Source of the DNA: an uncultured bacterium
GTDB taxonomy: Bacteria > Patescibacteriota > Dojkabacteria > SC72
Direction of reading: 5' to 3'
DNA: 36,686 nt
Assembly: GCA_903906305.1 (NCBI GenBank)
Contig: CAIVJR010000009.1
Coordinates: 1 to 36,686, forward strand
The notes under the pieces were generated by a model that made no database searches, was not told where the DNA came from, and saw nothing but the letters and a program-made list of their open reading frames with translations. Numbering within the stretch: position 1 is the first letter of the stretch; each line of letters begins with the position of its first letter. The position numbers were made by a program, and so were the translations under genes. Below, piece by piece: positions 3,394 through 32,215 of this stretch.

Positions 3394-5157
3394 TTACAAC
3401 TTATTTAATAACGTTTTAATCTCTTCAATTCCGTTCTCCCAGAACTCTTTCTTAGTAATATCTATTCCAATATCCTTAAACAACTCCTTAGGTGATTGTG
3501 TAGAACCAGATTCTAAGAACCTCTTAACATATACTATATTCTTTTTATCATCCTTAACCATCTTCTGTAAAGCCTTGGATATCAATAATCCACTAGCATA
3601 TGAATATACGTAGAAGAATCTTCTAAAATGACTAATATATATCCATCCATTTCTCATACCCTCATCTTCTTCAACAGTATCTCCTAGGTATGACTTCATA
3701 TGTTTACAGAACAGATCAGAAATATATTCTTTTGTTAAGAACCCTTTTTCTCTAAAATCATGATGTAATTCAGTCTCAAAATTATAGAAAGCTACCTGTC
3801 TAAATATGGTAGAGGCATTCTCATTCATATTCATATCGAGTATTGCTTGCTTTACTGTTTGATCTGTTGTTGTTCTTAATATCTCCTCTAGTACAAAACC
3901 TTCAAAAAAAGTGCTAGCTACTTCAGCTAAAGAAATAGGGTGCCCACAGTTTATTGCATTCTGTTTTTCATTTGATAGCTCTGCATGAATACCATGACCA
4001 CTTTCATGAGCCATAGTGAGAACATCTCCCAATTGATTCTGAAAGTTCAAAAGCATATATGTAGGAAGGTTTTTGTTTACTGAAATACAAAAAGCACCTC
4101 CAGACTTTCCTTTCTCTGGAGATACATCGTATTGTCCGTTTTGAAAGTATTGGTTGATAGTTTGTCCAAAGAATGGATCCAAATTATTGAAAACTTTCTC
4201 AACTAGATTCTTTGATTGTTCAAATGTATATTTTTGATTTGCCCCTTGAAGTGGAATATTTCTTTCATAGTAGCCTAATTTCTTTAATCCGAGTAACTTA
4301 GCCTTCTTTGCGTAGTATTCTCTCGAAATATTGAAGTTATCTGTAACGGTCTTTACAAGGGTGTCTACTACTTCTGAATCAATATCATCAGCAATATGGG
4401 TTGCGAGATCTGCTCTGGGAAGTTTACGATAATCATCAGTGATTTTTTTAGTTTCTAAAATTGAATTAATTTCAAATTCTGCTATTTCTGCATATTTAGA
4501 GTTAATTCGATTGAATTCTTTTGCGGCAACATCTCTGACTTTCTTATTTAAAGAATGATGATATTGTGTAATGTCATTGTAACTAATTTCTATCTCTTTT
4601 AATTCTTCATTAAGTACCGTAGCTTTCTGTTTATTTAAAAGCTCAGTTAGCATCTTTTTCCAATTAGAATGAGATGTCTTTGAAGTTAAACTAAAAACAT
4701 TTTCTTCTTTTTCAGATAGCAAATATTTTGATATTAGGAATTCTTGTTCCAAATGGTGCTTGTAGGGTTTTAGACCTTCATATTCTAAAAAAGATTTTTG
4801 TTTTGATGAAGGTATTCGGGATATTGTTAAACTAAAAAATTGTATTTCATTTTCTAACTTCGTATATAGCTCATCTATTTGATTTAGTCTTGCCTTTATA
4901 TCTGGATTAGATTGATCCAAATAGTTTCTCAACATGAAGTAATATATTGGTTTCTCACATATTCCAGTAGTAGCTTGTAGCTTTTCGTATTCATCTAATG
5001 CCTTAGCTAAGACTGCTGGATCTTTTGTATATTCTTTGTTAATTTTCCATTTTTTAACAAAGGTATGTACGTTCTTCGTAGCGAGATCTATATCCTTTTG
5101 GATTTGAGGATCTGTTTCTGATTTATAGAGTAGTTTTAGATTCCATTTGGTTATCAT
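3394..5157 (-). CDS. pepF: Oligoendopeptidase F (peptidase family M3)
   Basis: This cytoplasmic zinc metallopeptidase of 587 residues degrades short peptides and is close to the usual PepF length of about 600. The active-site motif is HESGH at residues 384-388, in the context TMAHESGHGIHAEL. Downstream SLAEVASTFFEGF carries the third metal ligand Glu. An N-terminal helical domain and a C-terminal region rich in Tyr (FFYVYSYASG) match family M3B. ATG at 5157 lies only 5 nt from a perfect TATAAT (5163-5168, minus strand), so the mRNA is probably leaderless. The substrate is inferred from the family only. Confidence 0.93.
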   Translation of the reverse strand: MITKWNLKLLYKSETDPQIQKDIDLATKNVHTFVKKWKINKEYTKDPAVLAKALDEYEKLQATTGICEKPIYYFMLRNYLDQSNPDIKARLNQIDELYTKLENEIQFFSLTISRIPSSKQKSFLEYEGLKPYKHHLEQEFLISKYLLSEKEENVFSLTSKTSHSNWKKMLTELLNKQKATVLNEELKEIEISYNDITQYHHSLNKKVRDVAAKEFNRINSKYAEIAEFEINSILETKKITDDYRKLPRADLATHIADDIDSEVVDTLVKTVTDNFNISREYYAKKAKLLGLKKLGYYERNIPLQGANQKYTFEQSKNLVEKVFNNLDPFFGQTINQYFQNGQYDVSPEKGKSGGAFCISVNKNLPTYMLLNFQNQLGDVLTMAHESGHGIHAELSNEKQNAINCGHPISLAEVASTFFEGFVLEEILRTTTDQTVKQAILDMNMNENASTIFRQVAFYNFETELHHDFREKGFLTKEYISDLFCKHMKSYLGDTVEEDEGMRNGWIYISHFRRFFYVYSYASGLLISKALQKMVKDDKKNIVYVKRFLESGSTQSPKELFKDIGIDITKKEFWENGIEEIKTLLNKL

Positions 5158-5162
5158 ATTAC

Positions 5163-5168
5163 ATTATA
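5163..5168 (-). promoter_or_regulatory. -10 box, leaderless pepF
   Basis: TATAAT on the minus strand is separated from the pepF ATG by 5 nt (GTAAT), so transcription should start at or next to the start codon. Confidence 0.6.
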
Positions 5169-5195
5169 CCTTAATGAAGATACTATGGGAAAGTA

Positions 5196-5225
5196 TTGAC
5201 AGAATATAGAGAGGGGAGTGATAAT
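5196..5225 (+). promoter_or_regulatory. Promoter for structured RNA A
   Basis: A perfect -35 TTGACA (5196-5201), an 18-nt spacer and -10 GATAAT (5220-5225, preceded by T) predict a start near 5232. It is divergent from pepF and has one of the few strong -35 boxes in the window. Confidence 0.6.
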
Positions 5226-5267
5226 GTGGATGTAATAGCCATAGGTTATGAAAAGGGAGGGCTCAAT

Positions 5268-5288
5268 ATGAGTTTAACTATTTCCTAA
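5268..5288 (+). CDS. Possible 6-residue leader ORF at the 5' end of RNA A
   Basis: ATG 5268 through TAA 5288 encodes MSLTIS. The purine run GGGAGGG (5255-5261) is well placed as a ribosome site. The ORF ends before the first strong helix. It may be a leader peptide or simply chance; no composition points to a sensed amino acid. Confidence 0.2.
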   Translation: MSLTIS

Positions 5289-5664
5289 AATAAACTGGCG
5301 GGAATTACCCTAGTCTTGTAGCTAGAAATGACTAGGCCTTACGTGGCACCACGTCAAGAGCTTTGTTCTGTGTGGTCGTCGGCGCGACTCACAAATAAAG
5401 TAAAAGGTGCAGAGGAGTGCTTGGTACTTTCGCTATCTGAAGATTTTTTTAACTTAAAAAACTCAGATTCCAACCACTCCTCTCAAGAACTACTCAAATA
5501 TTTGTGTAAATCAATTTCAAAGCTTGTGAATAATCCCAAGGTCCAGTCTTCTTTAACGGAGGATTGACAGAAGATATGTCTGGAGTAATAATATACATGT
5601 TCGTATTGGTTCAGCTTGCAAATTATGAAGCTGGATAGGTTTTCCCCTAACCAAGGAGGTTAAT

Positions 5665-5772
5665 ATGTGGGAAAATAGATTTTTGTTAGTGGCTCGTCGC
5701 TCTTTGAATACCGTGGATCCGTTTGCCAAAATTTTCTTCGTGCAACCTCGCTGCTCTTTCTCCTTCAGCTAG
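5665..5772 (+). CDS. Possible 35-residue ORF inside RNA A, with masked ribosome site
   Basis: ATG 5665 to TAG 5770-5772 encodes 35 residues beginning MWENRFLLVARRS, rich in Arg, Phe and Ser. An ideal AAGGAGG (5653-5659) precedes it by 5 nt. That site lies in the loop and 3' arm of the hairpin TAACC/GGTTA, itself flanked by TTTTCCC/GGGAAAA. The stop codon falls within the next helix (AGCTAG, 5767-5772). The function is unknown. The overlap with paired segments makes structural rather than coding conservation equally likely. Confidence 0.25.
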   Translation: MWENRFLLVARRSLNTVDPFAKIFFVQPRCSFSFS

Positions 5773-5975
5773 CCCATGGTCCAGGCCGATGTGCCTCTAG
5801 CTAAAACGGAGAAATGTAAGTGAACCAATAGGGTTAATCAGAGTCTAGAAAGCTTATAAGCTTTCGCCATATGGACGGGTGTGCAGGGTTTGTGTGACCT
5901 TTTGGTCCTCATTTTATACCTGCGCCCCGTTCATGAATTTCATATTCTCGTCTTTTTAATCCCATATCTTTGATA

Positions 5976-5981
5976 TATAAT
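5976..5981 (+). promoter_or_regulatory. -10 box before element B
   Basis: TATAAT follows the presumed end of RNA A by about 20 nt. The -35 region is only T-rich. A transcript starting near 5988 would contain the hairpins of element B. Read-through from A is also possible. Confidence 0.35.
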
Positions 5982-5987
5982 CAATCA

Positions 5988-6150
5988 TGTTTGAAACACT
6001 TCAATATCTTTCATATGAAGGAGGTGATTCAATGGGGATTACAACAGCAAATTCATGTATTCTGTGAATTGATGACAATCACTTGCTGTTGTAAAGAGGA
6101 AAAGAAAAATATGGATAAATATCCAATCCTATCTCTTTTCCTCTTCCCCT
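5988..6150 (+). ncRNA. Structured segment B: two perfect 12-bp hairpins
   Basis: The first hairpin pairs TTACAACAGCAA (6039-6050) with TTGCTGTTGTAA (6083-6094) and contains an inner ATTCA/TGAAT (6051-6055/6065-6069). The second begins immediately: AAGAGGAAAAGA (6094-6105) pairs with TCTTTTCCTCTT (6134-6145), capped by TGGAT/ATCCA. Two consecutive perfect 12-bp stems are very unlikely by chance. There is no U tract after the second arm, so it is not a classical terminator. The strand is inferred from the neighbouring RNAs. It may be a leader, a small RNA or part of a longer transcript. Confidence 0.5.
6032..6067 (+). CDS. Possible 11-residue leader peptide in segment B
   Basis: The sequence AAGGAGGTGAT (6018-6028), a near-perfect complement of the 16S rRNA 3' end, precedes ATG 6032 by 3 nt. 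The ORF encodes MGITTANSCIL and ends at TGA 6065-6067. The codons form the 5' arm and loop of the 12-bp hairpin 6039-6094, so a translating ribosome would open it. This is the geometry of an attenuator, but no downstream gene follows directly. Expression is unproven. Confidence 0.35.
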   Translation: MGITTANSCIL

Positions 6151-6180
6151 AAACTCTTTAATATCCCATAGTTATGTTTG

Positions 6181-6186
6181 TATAAT
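6181..6186 (+). promoter_or_regulatory. -10 box before element C
   Basis: TATAAT lies about 14 nt before the outer helix of segment C. The upstream region has no good -35 box. Confidence 0.35.
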
Positions 6187-6192
6187 ACCGTT

Positions 6193-6405
6193 GTAATTGA
6201 TTCTCTACGGAAGAAATGGAGATGTCACTCTTGTTTGAAAAAATAGAATAATTTCGGTTTCGCAAATCGAGCCCAAAAACACTATTTATTTCGCTATAAA
6301 ACACACGTAGAGAATACAAGCAACAAAGATGGGGAGTCCTATGAGAATCTAGATGAAAATCTAAACACAATTCACTCTACTTACATAACACTCCCCATCT
6401 GAACA
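6193..6405 (+). ncRNA. Structured segment C
   Basis: Three nested or consecutive helices are visible. A perfect 10-bp helix joins ATTCTCTACG (6200-6209) with CGTAGAGAAT (6306-6315) and encloses CGGTTT/AAATCG (6255-6260/6264-6269), which has a plus-strand G-U pair. A perfect 11-bp helix then pairs AGATGGGGAGT (6327-6337) with ACTCCCCATCT (6390-6400) and encloses TAGAT-GAAA-ATCTA (6350-6363), a stem with a GNRA-type tetraloop. There is no U tract after the last stem. A 70-residue minus-strand frame covers the same bases but has no coding character. The family is not recognised. Confidence 0.45.
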
Positions 6406-6427
6406 CCTCTTTCATATTAGAATATTA

Positions 6428-6457
6428 TTGACAATTTCTTTCTTAACAACCTATATT
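6428..6457 (+). promoter_or_regulatory. Promoter for small RNA D
   Basis: TTGACA (6428-6433), an 18-nt spacer and TATATT (6452-6457, within a TATATTATATA tract) predict a start at about 6464, immediately before the terminal helix of RNA D. Confidence 0.65.
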
Positions 6458-6463
6458 ATATAT

Positions 6464-6688
6464 GAAGTCTAGCTGGATTTTTTTTGCTACTCTTCGATGG
6501 AAAGAATAGGGGATAAGAAAGGAGGCCATATTGGTCAAGAATGTATAACTTCCTTTATTTGAAATCTTGCCGTCACCGACATCTTGCCATTGGGAGTAAT
6601 GCCCAGTTTAGAATTGAAACCTATTCTGGTAGCTAGACATAGGATAGAGTCCTAACCATTTACCATGTGGACTCTATCCTTTTTCTCT
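6464..6688 (+). ncRNA. Small structured RNA D with its own promoter and terminator
   Basis: About 225 nt between a sigma70-like promoter and a Rho-independent terminator. The 3' segment GTAGCTAGAC (6629-6638) pairs with two 5' pieces, GCTAC (6486-6490) and GTCTA (6467-6471), leaving a bulge with eight T. Next come AGAATAGG/CCTATTCT (6503-6510/6620-6627), AAAGGA/TCCTTT (6518-6523/6551-6556) and GGCC/GGTC (6524-6527/6533-6536). The closed terminal helix and length are compatible with a 6S-like or other housekeeping small RNA. The large asymmetric bulge argues against a standard 6S fold, and no SRP, tmRNA or RNase P signature is present. Conditional action on ileS through read-through is possible but not shown. 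Confidence 0.6.
6641..6685 (+). terminator. Rho-independent terminator of RNA D
   Basis: AGGATAGAGTCC (6641-6652) pairs perfectly with GGACTCTATCCT (6669-6680), and TTTTT follows. This is the clearest terminator in the noncoding region and separates D from the ileS leader. Confidence 0.85.
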
Positions 6689-6704
6689 TTCATTAAATAT
6701 CTGA

Positions 6705-6710
6705 TATAAT
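6705..6710 (+). promoter_or_regulatory. -10 box for the ileS T-box leader
   Basis: TATAAT lies directly after the RNA D terminator. The start would be near 6717, giving a leader of about 225 nt before the ileS ATG. The -35 region is weak. Confidence 0.55.
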
Positions 6711-6716
6711 CATCCT

Positions 6717-6923
6717 TAATACGTTAATCCAGTAATCACTGGGGAGTAGTAGAAAGAAAATATTTCTTTAAACAGAAATATTAGTAGAATCTACCGTATG
6801 TAAACGAAATATACACAAATGAGAAATAAATAGGGTGGTACCGCGTACTCAATGTTCGCCCCTTTCTAAAGATTAGTATATATTAATAGATATATACCAG
6901 TTTTTAGAGAGGGGCTTTTTGTT
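6717..6923 (+). promoter_or_regulatory. T-box riboswitch (tRNA-Ile sensing leader) of ileS
   Basis: The T-box sequence AGGGTGGTACCGCG (6832-6845) matches the family consensus AGGGUGGNACCGCG. Its AGGG can pair with CCCT (6860-6863) as antiterminator, in competition with the terminator 6858-6870/6903-6915. T-box leaders bind a specific tRNA and allow transcription when it is uncharged. Upstream are hairpins 6729-6733/6738-6742 and 6759-6767/6774-6782 flanked by GTAG/CTAC, then a stem III candidate GTATGT/ATATAC (6796-6801/6809-6814). The internal loop holds AGTA-like and GAATC segments, so ATC at 6789-6791 is the best isoleucine specifier candidate; ATC in the loop 6734-6737 is the alternative. 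Stem I is much shorter than in Firmicutes. Confidence 0.9.
6858..6923 (+). terminator. T-box-controlled terminator of ileS
   Basis: GCCCCTTTCTAAA (6858-6870) pairs with TTTAGAGAGGGGC (6903-6915) over 13 bp with one G-U, followed by TTTTTGTTT. It overlaps the antiterminator arm of the T-box. Confidence 0.85.
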
Positions 6924-6942
6924 TAAATTAACGAATACAAAT

Positions 6943-9855
6943 ATGGAAGATATAAAGATAAAGAAAAATGAAATGATGCCTAATTTCCCTAAAACAGAGG
7001 GAGATATATTAGCATTCTGGAAGGAAAACAATATTTTTCAAAAATCCATAGATCAAAGAGATAAGTCTAATCCATTTACTTTCTACGATGGACCAATAAC
7101 CTCAAACAACAAGCCACACTACGGACATGCACTAACAATGGTAATCAAAGATGTAGTACCAAGGTACAAAACAATGAAAGGATATCATGTAGATAGAAGC
7201 CTCGGTTGGGATTGCCAAGGGATACCTGTGGAATATGAAGTAGAGAAAACATTGGGTTTTGAACAAAAGGAAGATATTGAAAAATTCGGCATAGAGAAGT
7301 TCAATCAAATGTGCCGAGAATCAGTACAGAAATACCAAGGCGAGATATTTGCATTAACTGAAAGAATGGGAAGATGGATAAACAAAGATGAAGAATATGC
7401 AACAATGGATCCAGCGTACATTGAAAGTGTTTGGTGGTCATTAAGTGAGCTTTACAAAAAAGGTCTTCTCTACCAAGGGTACAAAGTAGTTCCTTACTCA
7501 ACTCGAGCAGGAACCACACTTTCTAACTCAGAGGTAGCACTTGGAGGATACAAAGCCATAGTGGATCCAGCTGTAACAGTAAGTTTGAAACTAAAAGACA
7601 GTGATACCTACCTCCTCATATGGACTACAACTCCATGGACCTTACCCGGAAACCTTTTGGTAGCAGTTGGAAATGATTTCGAATATGTAGAAGTAGAACA
7701 CAAAGGAAAAAAATATATCGTTGGAAAAGGACTCTTGGAAAAGGTATTTGGTGAAGATTACAAAGTATTAAATGAAATGCTAGGTAAAGATTTAGTCGGG
7801 AAAGAGTATGAACCATTGTATCCATACTATGCACAAAAGAGTAGCGAAGGTTGCTTTAGAGTAGTACATGCTGAACATGTAACTCTCGAAGATGGAACAG
7901 GTTTGGTACACCAAGCACCATATGGAGAAGAAGACTTCGCATTGATGACAGGTATGGGCATTGAGATGTTTGACTATCTTGATGATCAAGGAAATATGAA
8001 AGATGAGATTACTCAATTTGCAGGAATGTTCTACAAGAAGGCAAACAAATATGTAATGCAAGACTTAGAAGAGAGAGGATTACTCTTTGCACATGAGGAT
8101 CATGAACACCAAATGCCAATGTGTTGGAGAACTGAAACGCCATTGATATACAAACCAATTAAGAGTTGGTATGTAAGAGTTTCAGAAATTAGAAAGAGAA
8201 TGACAGAAGAGAACAACGAGATTAACTGGATACCAGAACATATTAAAGATGGAAGATTTGGAAATTGGTTGGCAGATGCACGAGATTGGGCTTTAAGTAG
8301 AAATAGATATTGGGGAACTCCACTTCCTGCTTGGATATGTGATAAATGTGGTGCTACAGAAGTACTAGGATCATTTGCTGAGATTAAAGACAGATCTGGA
8401 GTAGAATTAACCGATCCGCATAAACCATTCGTGGACGAAGTGAAATATGCATGTTCAAAGTGCGACGGAGAAATGCACAGAGTAACTGATGTCATTGATG
8501 TTTGGTATGATTCAGGATCTATGCCATTTGCTAGGTTCCACTATCCATTTGAAAATAAAGAGAAATTTGATAACAAATATCCTGCAGAGTTCATTGCAGA
8601 GGGAGTAGATCAAACTCGAGGTTGGTTCTACACATTACATGTATTAGGTACTGCACTCTTTGACCAAAAAGCATTTAAAAATGTAGTAGTAAATGGATTA
8701 GCCCTAGCGTCAGATGGATCAAAAATGTCTAAAAGTAAACGAAATTACACTGATATCAATATAGTCATAGATCAGCTAGGAGCAGATTCAATGAGACTCT
8801 ACTTCTTAAGTTCTCCAATTGTTCATGGAGAAGAGGTAATCTTTAATGAAAAATTCTTGAAAGAGATAATGACTTCGGTAATGCTTCCATATTGGAATTC
8901 TGTTAAGTACCTTTTAAGCTACCAGAGTGAGTCAAAATTGAAGAATGTAGAAGAACTTGATTTAAGTAATGTTATGGATAAATGGATTGTAGCGAGGCTT
9001 CACAAGACAATAGGGGATGTTACAACAAATATGGATGCATATGATTTACAACCAGCTACAAAGAGTATCTTTGATTTAATAGATGATCTTTCAAAGTGGT
9101 ATATCAGAAGATCAAGAGAACGATTTGTAAACGGTGATGTTAATGCTTTGGATACATTGCGATATGTATTGGTAGAAATATCCAAACTATTAGCCCCATT
9201 TGCACCATTCCTTGCAGAATCTGCATATCAGACATTAACAGAAGGGAATGCTAAAGAGTCAGTTCATTTAGAAGATTATTCTGAGGGAGAAAGCGAATTA
9301 CTTAATGATACATTACTTTCTGATATGAAAAAGGTGAGAGAGATTTGCTCTCTTGGCTTGACTATTCGTGACACAAGAAGGATCAAAGTAAGACAGCCGT
9401 TAGCAAAAGCATTTGTTTCAATTTCAGACCCAGCTATGCAGGAAATCATACAAGGGGAGTTGAATGTTAAAGAGATAGAATATGTTGAAAAGCCTAAATT
9501 GGGCCGTCCTCAATTTGAAGAAGAATATGTTGTTACATCTGCATCAGAACCTACTCAGGCAGTGTTTATTACTTTAGATATAAAGATATCAGAGGAATTG
9601 AAAGAGGAGGGTTTGTTAAATGAATTAACAAGAGGATTACAAGTAGCTAGAAAAGAGAGTGGATGCCAGGTAGGTCAGGCTATATCTGTAAAATATCAGA
9701 CTGAAAGCAAAGAAATTGAAGAACTCATATCTTGCCATCTTGAAGAACTTGAAAAAGTAGTTTTAGCTAAATCATTTGAAAAAGTAGCAACTTTGGAGAA
9801 TGGCATAAAGCTCAAACTAGCAGAAGTTGAAGTCTTTGTAGAGATAATAAAATAG
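6943..9855 (+). CDS. ileS: Isoleucyl-tRNA synthetase, type 2 (eukaryote-like)
   Basis: This enzyme activates isoleucine and charges tRNA-Ile, with editing of valine. I start at ATG 6943 (970 residues); the in-frame TTG at 6919 falls inside the terminator U tract. The HIGH motif is HYGH at residues 59-62, within KDVVPRYKTMKGYHVDRS, and KMSKS is at 594-598 in GSKMSKSKRNY. Both contexts match IleRS2, the type usually less sensitive to mupirocin. The editing domain follows WTTTPWTLPGNLLVAV. Cysteine pairs in CDKCGA and ACSKCDGE suggest a zinc knuckle. The anticodon-binding domain and a C-terminal extension complete the protein. Its expression is probably set by the upstream T-box. Confidence 0.97.
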   Translation: MEDIKIKKNEMMPNFPKTEGDILAFWKENNIFQKSIDQRDKSNPFTFYDGPITSNNKPHYGHALTMVIKDVVPRYKTMKGYHVDRSLGWDCQGIPVEYEVEKTLGFEQKEDIEKFGIEKFNQMCRESVQKYQGEIFALTERMGRWINKDEEYATMDPAYIESVWWSLSELYKKGLLYQGYKVVPYSTRAGTTLSNSEVALGGYKAIVDPAVTVSLKLKDSDTYLLIWTTTPWTLPGNLLVAVGNDFEYVEVEHKGKKYIVGKGLLEKVFGEDYKVLNEMLGKDLVGKEYEPLYPYYAQKSSEGCFRVVHAEHVTLEDGTGLVHQAPYGEEDFALMTGMGIEMFDYLDDQGNMKDEITQFAGMFYKKANKYVMQDLEERGLLFAHEDHEHQMPMCWRTETPLIYKPIKSWYVRVSEIRKRMTEENNEINWIPEHIKDGRFGNWLADARDWALSRNRYWGTPLPAWICDKCGATEVLGSFAEIKDRSGVELTDPHKPFVDEVKYACSKCDGEMHRVTDVIDVWYDSGSMPFARFHYPFENKEKFDNKYPAEFIAEGVDQTRGWFYTLHVLGTALFDQKAFKNVVVNGLALASDGSKMSKSKRNYTDINIVIDQLGADSMRLYFLSSPIVHGEEVIFNEKFLKEIMTSVMLPYWNSVKYLLSYQSESKLKNVEELDLSNVMDKWIVARLHKTIGDVTTNMDAYDLQPATKSIFDLIDDLSKWYIRRSRERFVNGDVNALDTLRYVLVEISKLLAPFAPFLAESAYQTLTEGNAKESVHLEDYSEGESELLNDTLLSDMKKVREICSLGLTIRDTRRIKVRQPLAKAFVSISDPAMQEIIQGELNVKEIEYVEKPKLGRPQFEEEYVVTSASEPTQAVFITLDIKISEELKEEGLLNELTRGLQVARKESGCQVGQAISVKYQTESKEIEELISCHLEELEKVVLAKSFEKVATLENGIKLKLAEVEVFVEIIK

Positions 9856-27784: not shown

Positions 27785-30700
27785 CTATACTTCTGAAGCC
27801 TGAACAGTAACACTAACATCCTGAGTATCAAAACAACTAGTACTAGTTGGCATAACCAATCTAAGATGGAAGCCCTTAGAACTACCAGAACCCAAACCAG
27901 AGAACAACCTTTGATATGAAGTAGAAAGATCACTGTAATTGGTTGGAGGAGCACTACAATCACTATCAGTAGCATTACAAGCCTGTAACTTGTATTGATT
28001 GTAACCATTACTACCAGCCAACGTCCAAACACAACTACTAATGGAATTCTTACCCTTAATATTCACATCAACACTATTAGGTCCCCCATTCGTAACAGTT
28101 TGCACATCCCCAACTGGAGGCATGTCTGTAGAATAGGTAGTCTTAGAACCAAAAGCTTCAATAGTACCAAAAGAAACCTCACCATCAGATACAGAGATGG
28201 ATATAACATAGAGGGGGATCTTCCAAGCCATATACCGTATAGTAGCTGCAGCATTAGCTCCGGTACCAGTACCAACACTAAAACCATCTGCCGTTATACC
28301 AGTAATCTGTGTAGTAGCATTAGCCGTGCCTAAGAAATACTGAGAGGCCGTACCAGCCAGTGTAGCAGGCTTATGTACACCACCAACTGCGGTTGCAGCC
28401 TTAACCCATATGAGATCGGATTCGTACCCAGTAGCGATAGTTTCACTATGTGCAAGTGTAGTACCAGTATATGATCCTACCTTAAAATTATCTCCAGCCT
28501 TAAACGCAAACCAGAAATTAATCGTGGCTGAAGCATTTACCGCAATATCGGTTCCAACCTGGAAACTATTCGTTCCAAACCTTTGTATGAAGTTAGCTGC
28601 ATCCGCAGTACCTAGGAAGTAGCTCGAGGAATCATCAGGATGTACAGAAGTACGAAGCATACCCGCAGAGTTTGTGGAGGTACCATATTTTTTTACAACA
28701 ACCAAATCAGGAGTAAATGGCAATACTATATCCCTATCATCAATACCACTGCCATAGTAAGCACCAATGGCAAAATCAGAAGCCCCACGATTATCTACTG
28801 GATCATATGCATTTCCAAATGCCTGCCATTGATATATAACAGTATTGGTATTTACTGCAGCACTACCGCCAATATCAAAACTCCCATCATTAAGCGAAAT
28901 TATGGCATCTGCAAAGTTAGCAGTAGTTGCACCTAAGTAAGCAGAAGTATTACCACCCATTAAGCTAGTTCTGAACACCTGGAGTCCGGTGGAGTTTCCC
29001 TTAATGAGTACTAGGTCAGGTTTAAATCCAATATTATTTATGGTTTGTTTTGTACCATTCCCAGTATATGAGCCTTGTGCCATTCTAAATGTCCCCGAAC
29101 CAGATGGGGCAGTAGCACCACCAAAAGCAGTGTAGTAGTAGGTATCTCCAGTAGCATTAACTAGTACACTTGTCCCAAGCTTAAAACCATCCGTCTCCAA
29201 GCTCTTAATCATATTTACTAAGTTTGCTGTAGCAGAAAAATAGCTAGAGTTATTTCCATATGATTGGGTAAGGTTCATGAATCCATAGGTGTTGTTTGCA
29301 GTAGCATTAGTACCATTCTTCGTTATGACTAAATTGGGTTTAAAACCAACACCAGATATAACGGTATTATCAGTACTATTCCCAGTATATGATCCTTGCT
29401 TAAAGAAGTTAGCTTTCTCTTTGAATGCAAAGTAGAAGAAAGTTCCCCCAGCTACACTGTTTGTTGTACCAACGGTGAATCCTGTGCTACTTAACGCGCT
29501 TATGTATGCACCAGTAGTATTTTTAACAGTGTTAATGTAAAAAATACTGTGATTATTTGCTCCTAAAGCTGTCGTTTTGTAATTGGCAAGTACAGCTTCA
29601 TTATTTTTCACACTAACATAGTCGGGTTGGAATCCAGTGGTAATATTCTGAGCAGCACCAGTTCCTGTGTATACACCAAGACAAAAATATCCTGTAGAAC
29701 TACAATCTGAGCCAGCGAACGCCGTCCATGTATATGTGACATTTTCAAGATTTAAACTTACAACAGCTCCATCTGCAGTTGCAGAAAAATATCCTAAAAC
29801 ATTGTCTCGCATGGCAGAAGTTTTAAATATGGTTGGAATATTTGCTGTATCCGATTTGATTATGACCATCTCTGGGGCAAAGCCTAAGCCTGATATTGAG
29901 AATTGATTTCCTGTACCAACGTATGAGCCCGTTTGTATTTGAAGCGTTTGTGAATTTGTAGTCACACTACTAATACCACTGTATCCGCTATATCCATTTG
30001 GATTTGATGCCTTTACTCTGTACCAATATTGTTGATTAGCATTAAGCATATTGTCTGCAATTGAAAGCCCAGAGGTTGTTGCTACATATTTGTATAGACC
30101 TGGTGTACCAGATCTATCCATTGCACGTTCTACAATGTAATAGTCTGCCCCAGATGCGGCAGCCCAAGAAACTATTGTACCTGTGGTAGTTGTACCCGAG
30201 AACGTTGGAGTACCCGGATCTCCCGGTAGATTAGTAGGTGGTGCATAGTATGGGATTCTCCAAGCCATATATCGTATAGTTGCTGCAGCATTAGCTCCTG
30301 TACCAATTCCAACACTAAAACCATCTTCAGTAATTCCTGTAATCTGTGTAGTAGCATTTGCGGTAGCCAAGAAGTATTGGGAAGCCGTACCAGAGAGAGT
30401 CGAGGGTTTGGTTATACCTCCAACGGCAGTAGCAGGTTTTGTCCATATGAGGTTGGATTGAAATCCGGAAGCAATGGTTTCACTATGTGCAAGCGTAGTA
30501 CCAGTATATGATCCAACCTTAAAGTTATCTCCAGTCTTAAATGCGAACCAAAAATATGTTATCGCTGATGTATTTACATTTACACCTGTTCCAACCTGGA
30601 AACCGTCTGGTCTAAGAGTTTGTATTAAATTGGCAGCGTCAGCTGTAGCTTCAAAGTAACTAGTAAAATCTCCTGAATGAGAAGATGTTTTTATTACCGC

Positions 30701-32215
30701 AGATCCAGTATTTGTTATGGACTTCATAACAACAAAATCAGGTGCAAAGGGGAGATTGGAAATATTACGATCATCAATTCCGCTTCCATATGTTGCTCCA
30801 ATGGCAAAATCTGAAGCCCCAGCATTGTCCAGTGGATCATATGCATTTCCAAAAGCTTGCCATTGGTAGGTATTACCACTTGCATTGGTGTTGAGACTTG
30901 CACCAACATCGAAACTATCTTCATTTAGTGACAGAATACCTCCGTAGTAATTGGCTGTAGCACCTGTTGCGTATGCAGTACTATCTAAAGCCATGAGCTT
31001 GGTTCTAAATACCATTATCTGCGCTGCGTTGTTTTTTATGATTACTAAATCAGGTGCAAATCCAATATTCTCAATTGTTTGAACACTTCCATTTCCGGTA
31101 TATGTTCCTTGAGCCATTTTGAATGTTCCTGAGGAGGAAACAGAAGCTCCATTAAAGGCGAGATAGTAGTAGGTGTTTGAAGCAGTATTTATTTGTACTG
31201 CAGTGCCTAATTTAAAGCCATCAGTTTCCAGTCCTTTTATGTAATTCACAATGTTCGCAGTAGCGGCACCTATGTAGCTGGAGCTATTTCCATATGATTC
31301 AATCTGATTCATCACTGGAGCTGTACTTGCAGCTGTTGCATTGGTTCCATTTTTTACGATAACAAAGTCAGGAGCGAATCCGACTCCAGATATGACAGTG
31401 TTGTCTGTGGTATTTCCAGTGTATGATCCTTGTTTAAAGAAATTAGCAGATTCCTTAAACGCTACATAGTAAAATGTTCCTCCTCCTGCATTGTCTGTTG
31501 TACCTACAGTAAATCCAGTTGCATTCAAAGAGTTAATATACCCACTTGCACTTTTTACTGTTGCACTTAACCAAAGTGTTTCGGTATTACTTCCAAGTGC
31601 AGTAGTTTTGTAATGTGCTCCAACTGCGGTATCTCTTTTTACCATTACGAAATCTGGTTGAAATCCTGTGGTTATATTTTGTGTAGCCGCTGCGTTTCCA
31701 GTATATGTTCCTACACAGAAAGTACTAGTTGCTGATTCACAATCTGAACCGGTAAATGCAACCCATGTATATCGCACATTTGCTATATTTATGTTTGCAC
31801 TATTTCTAAGTGTAAACCCATCATTATCTAGTTTAAATTGATCGGATTCGGATACTGTAAATCCATCTGCATCAAGTGTTAATCTAATATCTCTGTTATC
31901 TACTGTTGCTGAGAAGTATGCCATATTTGTAGTAGGCATTGCAGTTGTTTTAAATACTGCTGCGGTATTTGCAGTATCGGATTTTATGATTACGAATTCA
32001 GGAGAAAAACCTAATCCTGTGATAGCTTGGTTTCTTCCATTTCCAACGTAGTAACCTGTTTGCATAGCTACATTTGCAGCTTTTGCATCCTTGGCTAATT
32101 TTGTATTGGTTAGATTGTATATGAGTGAGGGAACTCCGTAGAGTACGACAAGTAGGGCGAATGCTAAAGAAAGAGTTTTTCTAGTAATATGTGACTTTTT
32201 TATGGCAGATAGCAT
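27785..32215 (-). CDS. Giant exported repeat protein with 12 repeats around an Fn3 domain
   Basis: This 1476-residue surface or secreted protein has a basic start and hydrophobic helix (residues 16-36), with AKA-A near 43-47 as a possible signal cleavage site. Six repeats of about 90-100 residues follow (about 51-154, 165-255, 260-355, 365-456, 468-559, 563-654). Each begins G.Y.G, passes through GF.PdfViiK, and ends DGF.vG...Y.w.AF. A fibronectin type III domain lies at about 660-755. Then the same six repeats recur in the same order (about 759-833, 844-931, 936-1032, 1042-1133, 1147-1238, 1241-1332). A cysteine-containing C-terminal domain (1335-1476) closes the protein. No sortase motif or C-terminal anchor is seen. 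Function may be adhesion, inferred only. Confidence 0.85.
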   Translation of the reverse strand: MLSAIKKSHITRKTLSLAFALLVVLYGVPSLIYNLTNTKLAKDAKAANVAMQTGYYVGNGRNQAITGLGFSPEFVIIKSDTANTAAVFKTTAMPTTNMAYFSATVDNRDIRLTLDADGFTVSESDQFKLDNDGFTLRNSANINIANVRYTWVAFTGSDCESATSTFCVGTYTGNAAATQNITTGFQPDFVMVKRDTAVGAHYKTTALGSNTETLWLSATVKSASGYINSLNATGFTVGTTDNAGGGTFYYVAFKESANFFKQGSYTGNTTDNTVISGVGFAPDFVIVKNGTNATAASTAPVMNQIESYGNSSSYIGAATANIVNYIKGLETDGFKLGTAVQINTASNTYYYLAFNGASVSSSGTFKMAQGTYTGNGSVQTIENIGFAPDLVIIKNNAAQIMVFRTKLMALDSTAYATGATANYYGGILSLNEDSFDVGASLNTNASGNTYQWQAFGNAYDPLDNAGASDFAIGATYGSGIDDRNISNLPFAPDFVVMKSITNTGSAVIKTSSHSGDFTSYFEATADAANLIQTLRPDGFQVGTGVNVNTSAITYFWFAFKTGDNFKVGSYTGTTLAHSETIASGFQSNLIWTKPATAVGGITKPSTLSGTASQYFLATANATTQITGITEDGFSVGIGTGANAAATIRYMAWRIPYYAPPTNLPGDPGTPTFSGTTTTGTIVSWAAASGADYYIVERAMDRSGTPGLYKYVATTSGLSIADNMLNANQQYWYRVKASNPNGYSGYSGISSVTTNSQTLQIQTGSYVGTGNQFSISGLGFAPEMVIIKSDTANIPTIFKTSAMRDNVLGYFSATADGAVVSLNLENVTYTWTAFAGSDCSSTGYFCLGVYTGTGAAQNITTGFQPDYVSVKNNEAVLANYKTTALGANNHSIFYINTVKNTTGAYISALSSTGFTVGTTNSVAGGTFFYFAFKEKANFFKQGSYTGNSTDNTVISGVGFKPNLVITKNGTNATANNTYGFMNLTQSYGNNSSYFSATANLVNMIKSLETDGFKLGTSVLVNATGDTYYYTAFGGATAPSGSGTFRMAQGSYTGNGTKQTINNIGFKPDLVLIKGNSTGLQVFRTSLMGGNTSAYLGATTANFADAIISLNDGSFDIGGSAAVNTNTVIYQWQAFGNAYDPVDNRGASDFAIGAYYGSGIDDRDIVLPFTPDLVVVKKYGTSTNSAGMLRTSVHPDDSSSYFLGTADAANFIQRFGTNSFQVGTDIAVNASATINFWFAFKAGDNFKVGSYTGTTLAHSETIATGYESDLIWVKAATAVGGVHKPATLAGTASQYFLGTANATTQITGITADGFSVGTGTGANAAATIRYMAWKIPLYVISISVSDGEVSFGTIEAFGSKTTYSTDMPPVGDVQTVTNGGPNSVDVNIKGKNSISSCVWTLAGSNGYNQYKLQACNATDSDCSAPPTNYSDLSTSYQRLFSGLGSGSSKGFHLRLVMPTSTSCFDTQDVSVTVQASEV
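28190..32065 (-). repeat. Internal duplication: two copies of a six-repeat block
   Basis: The block encoding residues about 51-654 (30254-32065) and that encoding about 759-1332 (28220-29941) match repeat by repeat. The best pairs are repeats 3, 5 and 6. Repeat 6 of each copy is nearly identical (SQYFLATANATTQITGI versus SQYFLGTANATTQITGI). Repeat 1 of the second copy lacks about 30 residues. Nucleotide identity is still visible, for example in the segments starting near 28240 and 30280. Confidence 0.8.

Follow-up and report, generated by a model that had tools for sequence, protein, structure and literature searches.

The longest gap between genes in a bacterium of the WS6/Dojkabacteria lineage is, on balance, likely to hold a genus-restricted row of about five co-oriented small structured RNA genes with mini-ORFs, lying upstream of the ileS T-box. 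The first two of these putative genes, A1 and A2, take up the region 5232-5957, for which a single large ornate RNA had originally been predicted; from its sequence, the region is probably two modules, of ~270 nt (A1) and ~360 nt (A2), rather than one RNA of 725 nt. The promoters, the enrichment of short ORFs led by a SD, the conservation of two further units (B and C), and the differing unit sets of the sister species are evident at the level of sequence.

The gap upstream of ileS and its proposed units

The window, the whole stretch of DNA analyzed (36,686 nt), comes from a 787-kb genome, ~94% of which is covered by predicted ORFs; among named genomes, a Patescibacteria MAG and WS6 bacterium GW2011_GWC2_36_7 stand nearest to it, the second evidently being sister species G002, whose contig number and coordinates it shares. 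The gap (5158-6918) is flanked by a gene for a M3 peptidase and by ileS, with a T-box ahead of the latter. At 1,761 nt it is more than twofold longer than the second longest gap in the genome (762 nt), and G+C content in the reported region rises up to 0.43-0.48 in 200-nt windows versus 0.32 for the genome. Elsewhere in the window, 27785-32215 on the minus strand encodes a protein of 1,476 aa in which seven stretches match DUF7483.

As proposed here, A1, A2, A3, B and C would stand head to tail between the peptidase gene and the ileS T-box, all facing ileS. Each would consist of a promoter or promoter-like site, a 5' mini-ORF, a folded body often with a long-range closing helix, and a terminal hairpin. 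Each unit may be transcribed on its own between approximately placed ends, with ribosomes engaging a mini-ORF whose start region is predicted to be partly folded away, and the folded body would be the selected product, a small regulatory, possibly dual-function, RNA. The predicted features are listed below, with z-scores for folding relative to shuffles; every one of the five folds more strongly than shuffles do.

5196..5225, plus strand: promoter P1 (TTGACA-18-GATAAT), 11/12 match, taken to serve A1
5226..5510, plus strand: unit A1, ~270 nt, approximate ends, z -3.7
5268-5288, plus strand: A1 mini-ORF MSLTIS, SD at 5255
5411-5424/5470-5483, plus strand: A1 terminal hairpin (inverted repeat)
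5564..5592, plus strand: promoter P2 (TTGACA-17-AATAAT), 11/12, inside the reported RNA
5593..5957, plus strand: unit A2, ~360 nt, z -3.8, with helix 5604-5613/5821-5830 and arm 5871-5887/5919-5934
5665-5772, plus strand: A2 mini-ORF, 35 codons, SD at 5653
5976-5981, plus strand: TATAAT of unit A3, a promoter by inspection only
5976..6160, plus strand: unit A3, z -5.6, hairpins 6039-6050/6083-6094 and 6094-6105/6134-6145
6032-6067, plus strand: A3 mini-ORF MGITTANSCIL, SD at 6018
6158..6410, plus strand: unit B, z -5.2, closing helix and terminal hairpin 6327-6343/6384-6400, conserved in sister species G002
6158-6186, plus strand: unit B promoter, 10/12
6216-6251, plus strand: B mini-ORF, weaker SD
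6428..6692, plus strand: unit C, z -3.7, closing helix and hairpin 6635-6652/6669-6686 with a T-run, conserved in G002
6428-6457, plus strand: unit C promoter, 11/12
6531-6548, plus strand: C mini-ORF, TTG start, 5 codons, SD at 6519
6715..6915, plus strand: ileS T-box leader, terminator 6858-6883/6890-6915 (inverted repeat), adjoining the array and separate from it

Before the T-box, the plus strand of the gap has three promoters that match at 11/12 or better, and the minus strand has none (shuffle mean 0.024). The TTGACA promoter claimed in the original prediction is among them as P1; P2 is a near copy of it, the two forming a direct repeat with a spacing of 368 nt. On the minus strand of the gap, one scan found no promoter of at least 10/12 and another none of at least 11/12, while a separate promoter scan gave one 10/12 site (5191-5163), which faces the peptidase gene. 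The plus strand, taken as sense in the original prediction from G-U pairs, is favored by the promoters and by the SD and start signals. Folding, however, was rejected as proof of strand, as both strands of 5232-5957 fold more strongly than shuffles and equally well (z -4.9 for the plus and -5.0 for the reverse strand).

Short ORFs (5-35 codons) with a SD and a start codon number four on the plus strand (in A1, A2, A3 and C) and zero on the minus strand, with a shuffle mean of 0.21 (P about 0.0005); on either strand, none of the other long gaps listed has more than one such signal. The encoded peptides are not conserved. In G002 a 3-nt indel leaves the start, frame and stop of the B ORF (6216-6251) intact while the peptide is altered, and the five-codon TTG ORF of C is kept with three codons changed. 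One unit in G010, from another genus, has AAAGGAGG followed by a 21-codon ORF. Folded mRNAs with a small ORF and a partly hidden ribosome site could also encode short peptides silenced by antisense RNA, in the style of a type I toxin-antitoxin system. As most of the ORFs are just 5-11 codons long, with peptides that vary, and the minus strand of the gap is without a strong promoter, we regard that possibility as highly improbable.

The orientation of the units raises another alternative, a cascade of leader-peptide attenuators in which ribosomes on the mini-ORFs would set read-through at the hairpins and stacked promoters would feed ileS. All units face ileS with SD-led mini-ORFs preceding hairpins, and the T-box shows that ileS is under leader control. 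However, the T-box has a promoter-like TATAAT of its own, several family members have the T-box without the array, the mini-ORFs show no notable excess of Ile codons, and the C hairpin with its T-run would halt read-through; a cascade of this kind is rather unlikely. Amino-acid operon attenuator leaders share the SD, short ORF and hairpins with the units, but the units have no gene directly behind each, no Rfam leader match, and no clear run of a single codon. The T-box leader RNA is the next element downstream of the array, in the same direction and also structured. It matches RF00230 at 6715-6866 with 48.9 bits (E 3e-9), far short of the Rfam gathering score (93), and is therefore overlooked by a default scan; the T-box model has no match inside the reported feature. 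Unlike A, the T-box is conserved family-wide.

The reported region and known RNA families

Several elements of the original prediction for 5232-5957 were recovered. The perfect 10-bp helix 5604-5613/5821-5830 (TATTGGTTCA/TGAACCAATA) is present, with a pairing probability of ~0.95 for 9 of its 10 pairs. As 6% of shuffles hold a 10-bp perfect inverted repeat at a distance of 150-260 nt, this helix alone is weak evidence; in the G002 counterpart 7 of 10 aligned positions, read by inspection, are able to pair, yet the helix is not energetically favored there. The terminal arm 5871-5887/5919-5934 is found in the sequence and in the MFE fold, with no T-run directly after it. The frames tested have no Pfam or PHROGs match and no significant NCBIfam match, in keeping with the claim that the region lacks a credible gene. 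Protein genes were ruled out for A, where the frames tested lack a family match and no frame inside 5232-5957 is conserved in the sister species.

A single multidomain noncoding RNA of ~725 nt, starting at P1, ending at the arm 5871-5934, and representing a new large ornate class, would be in line with a strong P1 whose stretch is kept in G001 and G002 and with the folding of the whole. The lack of a good terminator between A1 and A2 also makes a single P1 transcript across both possible. No canonical terminator was scored across 5000-7000; a clear terminator is seen in unit C only, and read-through between units may occur. Yet P2 (5564-5592) lies inside the supposed RNA, each half is similar to a free-standing unit of a different sister species, and the plan of promoter and mini-ORF repeats in A3, B and C. 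Given the internal promoter and the separate halves, a GOLLD/ROOL/OLE-type RNA spanning the region is unlikely, and two modules are preferred. Region A does share with GOLLD, ROOL and OLE (PMC12286853) the lack of a long ORF, many helices, and long-range pairing, but it differs from them in having no covariance-model match, in its two modules (~270 and 360 nt), and in its restriction to one genus.

The original prediction of no known family also held up, as the region has no Rfam covariance-model match at the gathering score, nor under permissive filters when E values as high as 10 are allowed; the models for GOLLD, ROOL, OLE, HEARO and group II introns gave no match in either search. Known RNA families were rejected for the gap, as even at permissive filters the downstream T-box was the sole Rfam match. 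The region had further been said to be neither RNase P nor tmRNA. Accordingly, no RNase P model matches here, and that identity was rejected with the host gene found on contig C7 (G000:C7:48323-48625); ARAGORN detected no tmRNA in the window or genome, and RF00023 has no match in the region.

Replacement of tmRNA by the reported RNA was rejected as well. Neither tmRNA nor SmpB was found in the host assembly, G000. The relatives have tmRNA, in G001 on a different contig from ileS, and their tmRNA/SmpB region includes genes that, from reading the sequences, we take to be dnaA- and dnaN-like; these and most other neighbors are absent from G000. Since these genes are missing too, the missing tmRNA and SmpB are attributed to an assembly gap. 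G000 is rated 99.4% complete, though this region is missing from the assembly. Contig C7 also has a DUF3800-IX RNA (RF02968; L106 204-275, minus strand) with 56.3 bits, above the gathering score.

Comparison with sister species

At the place of the array, G001 has a single unit, and in G002 a first unit right at P1 is followed by B, C and an extra unit, D (units in both species were read by eye). Unit D (L002, reverse complement 1957-2195) has no counterpart in the window. In local alignments compared with dinucleotide shuffles, A1 scores as similar to the sole G001 unit at P=0.004, and A2 to the first unit of G002 at P=0.014; the cross pairs are negative (P=0.64 and 0.21). As P rises to 0.06 and 0.18, respectively, with stricter gap costs, homology of A1 and A2 with these units is suggestive, not proved. 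The covariation alignments for A1 and A2 hold two heavily diverged sequences each. Among 59 relatives, class-wide, the body of A has no significant match in the sister species, where the promoter stretch alone aligns, and other genera yield two short matches.

Units B and C are together 76% identical to their G002 counterparts. In C, 0 of 52 pairs are broken, with one double change and four single changes, and most differences lie in loops; B shows much the same, except for three pairs lost in one gap. Based on two sequences, these patterns fit selection on structure without proving it. Among 32 family genomes, B and C were found in G002 only, and no convincing relative beyond the genus emerged. 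B and C (6158-6692) are better candidates for a new RNA family than the reported A region.

The variability of the gap could also mean that it tolerates drifting leftover DNA from decayed genes or insertions, with an A region devoid of function. The gap does vary among family members, that of G011 holding an unrelated protein-like frame, and A evolves very fast. Against such an origin are the enrichment of promoters and SD signals, the folding z-scores, the conservation of B and C, the lack of protein relatives, and the lack of matches to A in phage or plasmid records; the core patterns of B and C were likewise not found in viral contigs. We therefore consider leftover DNA very unlikely, and the array of small RNA genes remains the preferred explanation.

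Possible function and turnover of the array

Units of the array are perhaps dual-function sRNAs or mini-mRNAs. Like the units, RNAIII of Staphylococcus aureus is rich in hairpins and contains a long-range helix. By way of working, the array appears to most resemble dual-function sRNAs, although membership in the named families, when tested, was not found. With dual-function sRNAs like RNAIII, SgrS/SgrT of enteric bacteria (PMC4021124) and VcdRP of Vibrio cholerae (PMC8672173), the units share a promoter of their own, a size of a few hundred nt, a SD-led small ORF, and a folded noncoding body. For A1 and A2 the promoters would be P1 and P2, as read from the DNA, and the small ORFs are predicted ones. 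The units differ from those sRNAs in having no Rfam match, non-conserved peptides, and several members in a row. A search of the accessible literature on small RNAs in this lineage returned nothing relevant.

The gap may tentatively be seen as a site of rapid RNA-gene turnover, though this is a less probable reading. Within a single genus, species would acquire, duplicate, remodel and lose cassettes made up of a promoter, a mini-ORF, a folded RNA and a hairpin. Selection would maintain the act of translating the mini-ORF rather than the peptide made, and this would be a modular RNA array of a new kind.

In a streamlined CPR genome that is ~94% coding, the longest gap is given to a putative row of folded RNAs without a family match. 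If expressed, these would be genus-specific RNA genes in bacteria with little known RNA regulation. As the sets of units differ between sister species, one could follow directly how RNA genes arise and disappear.
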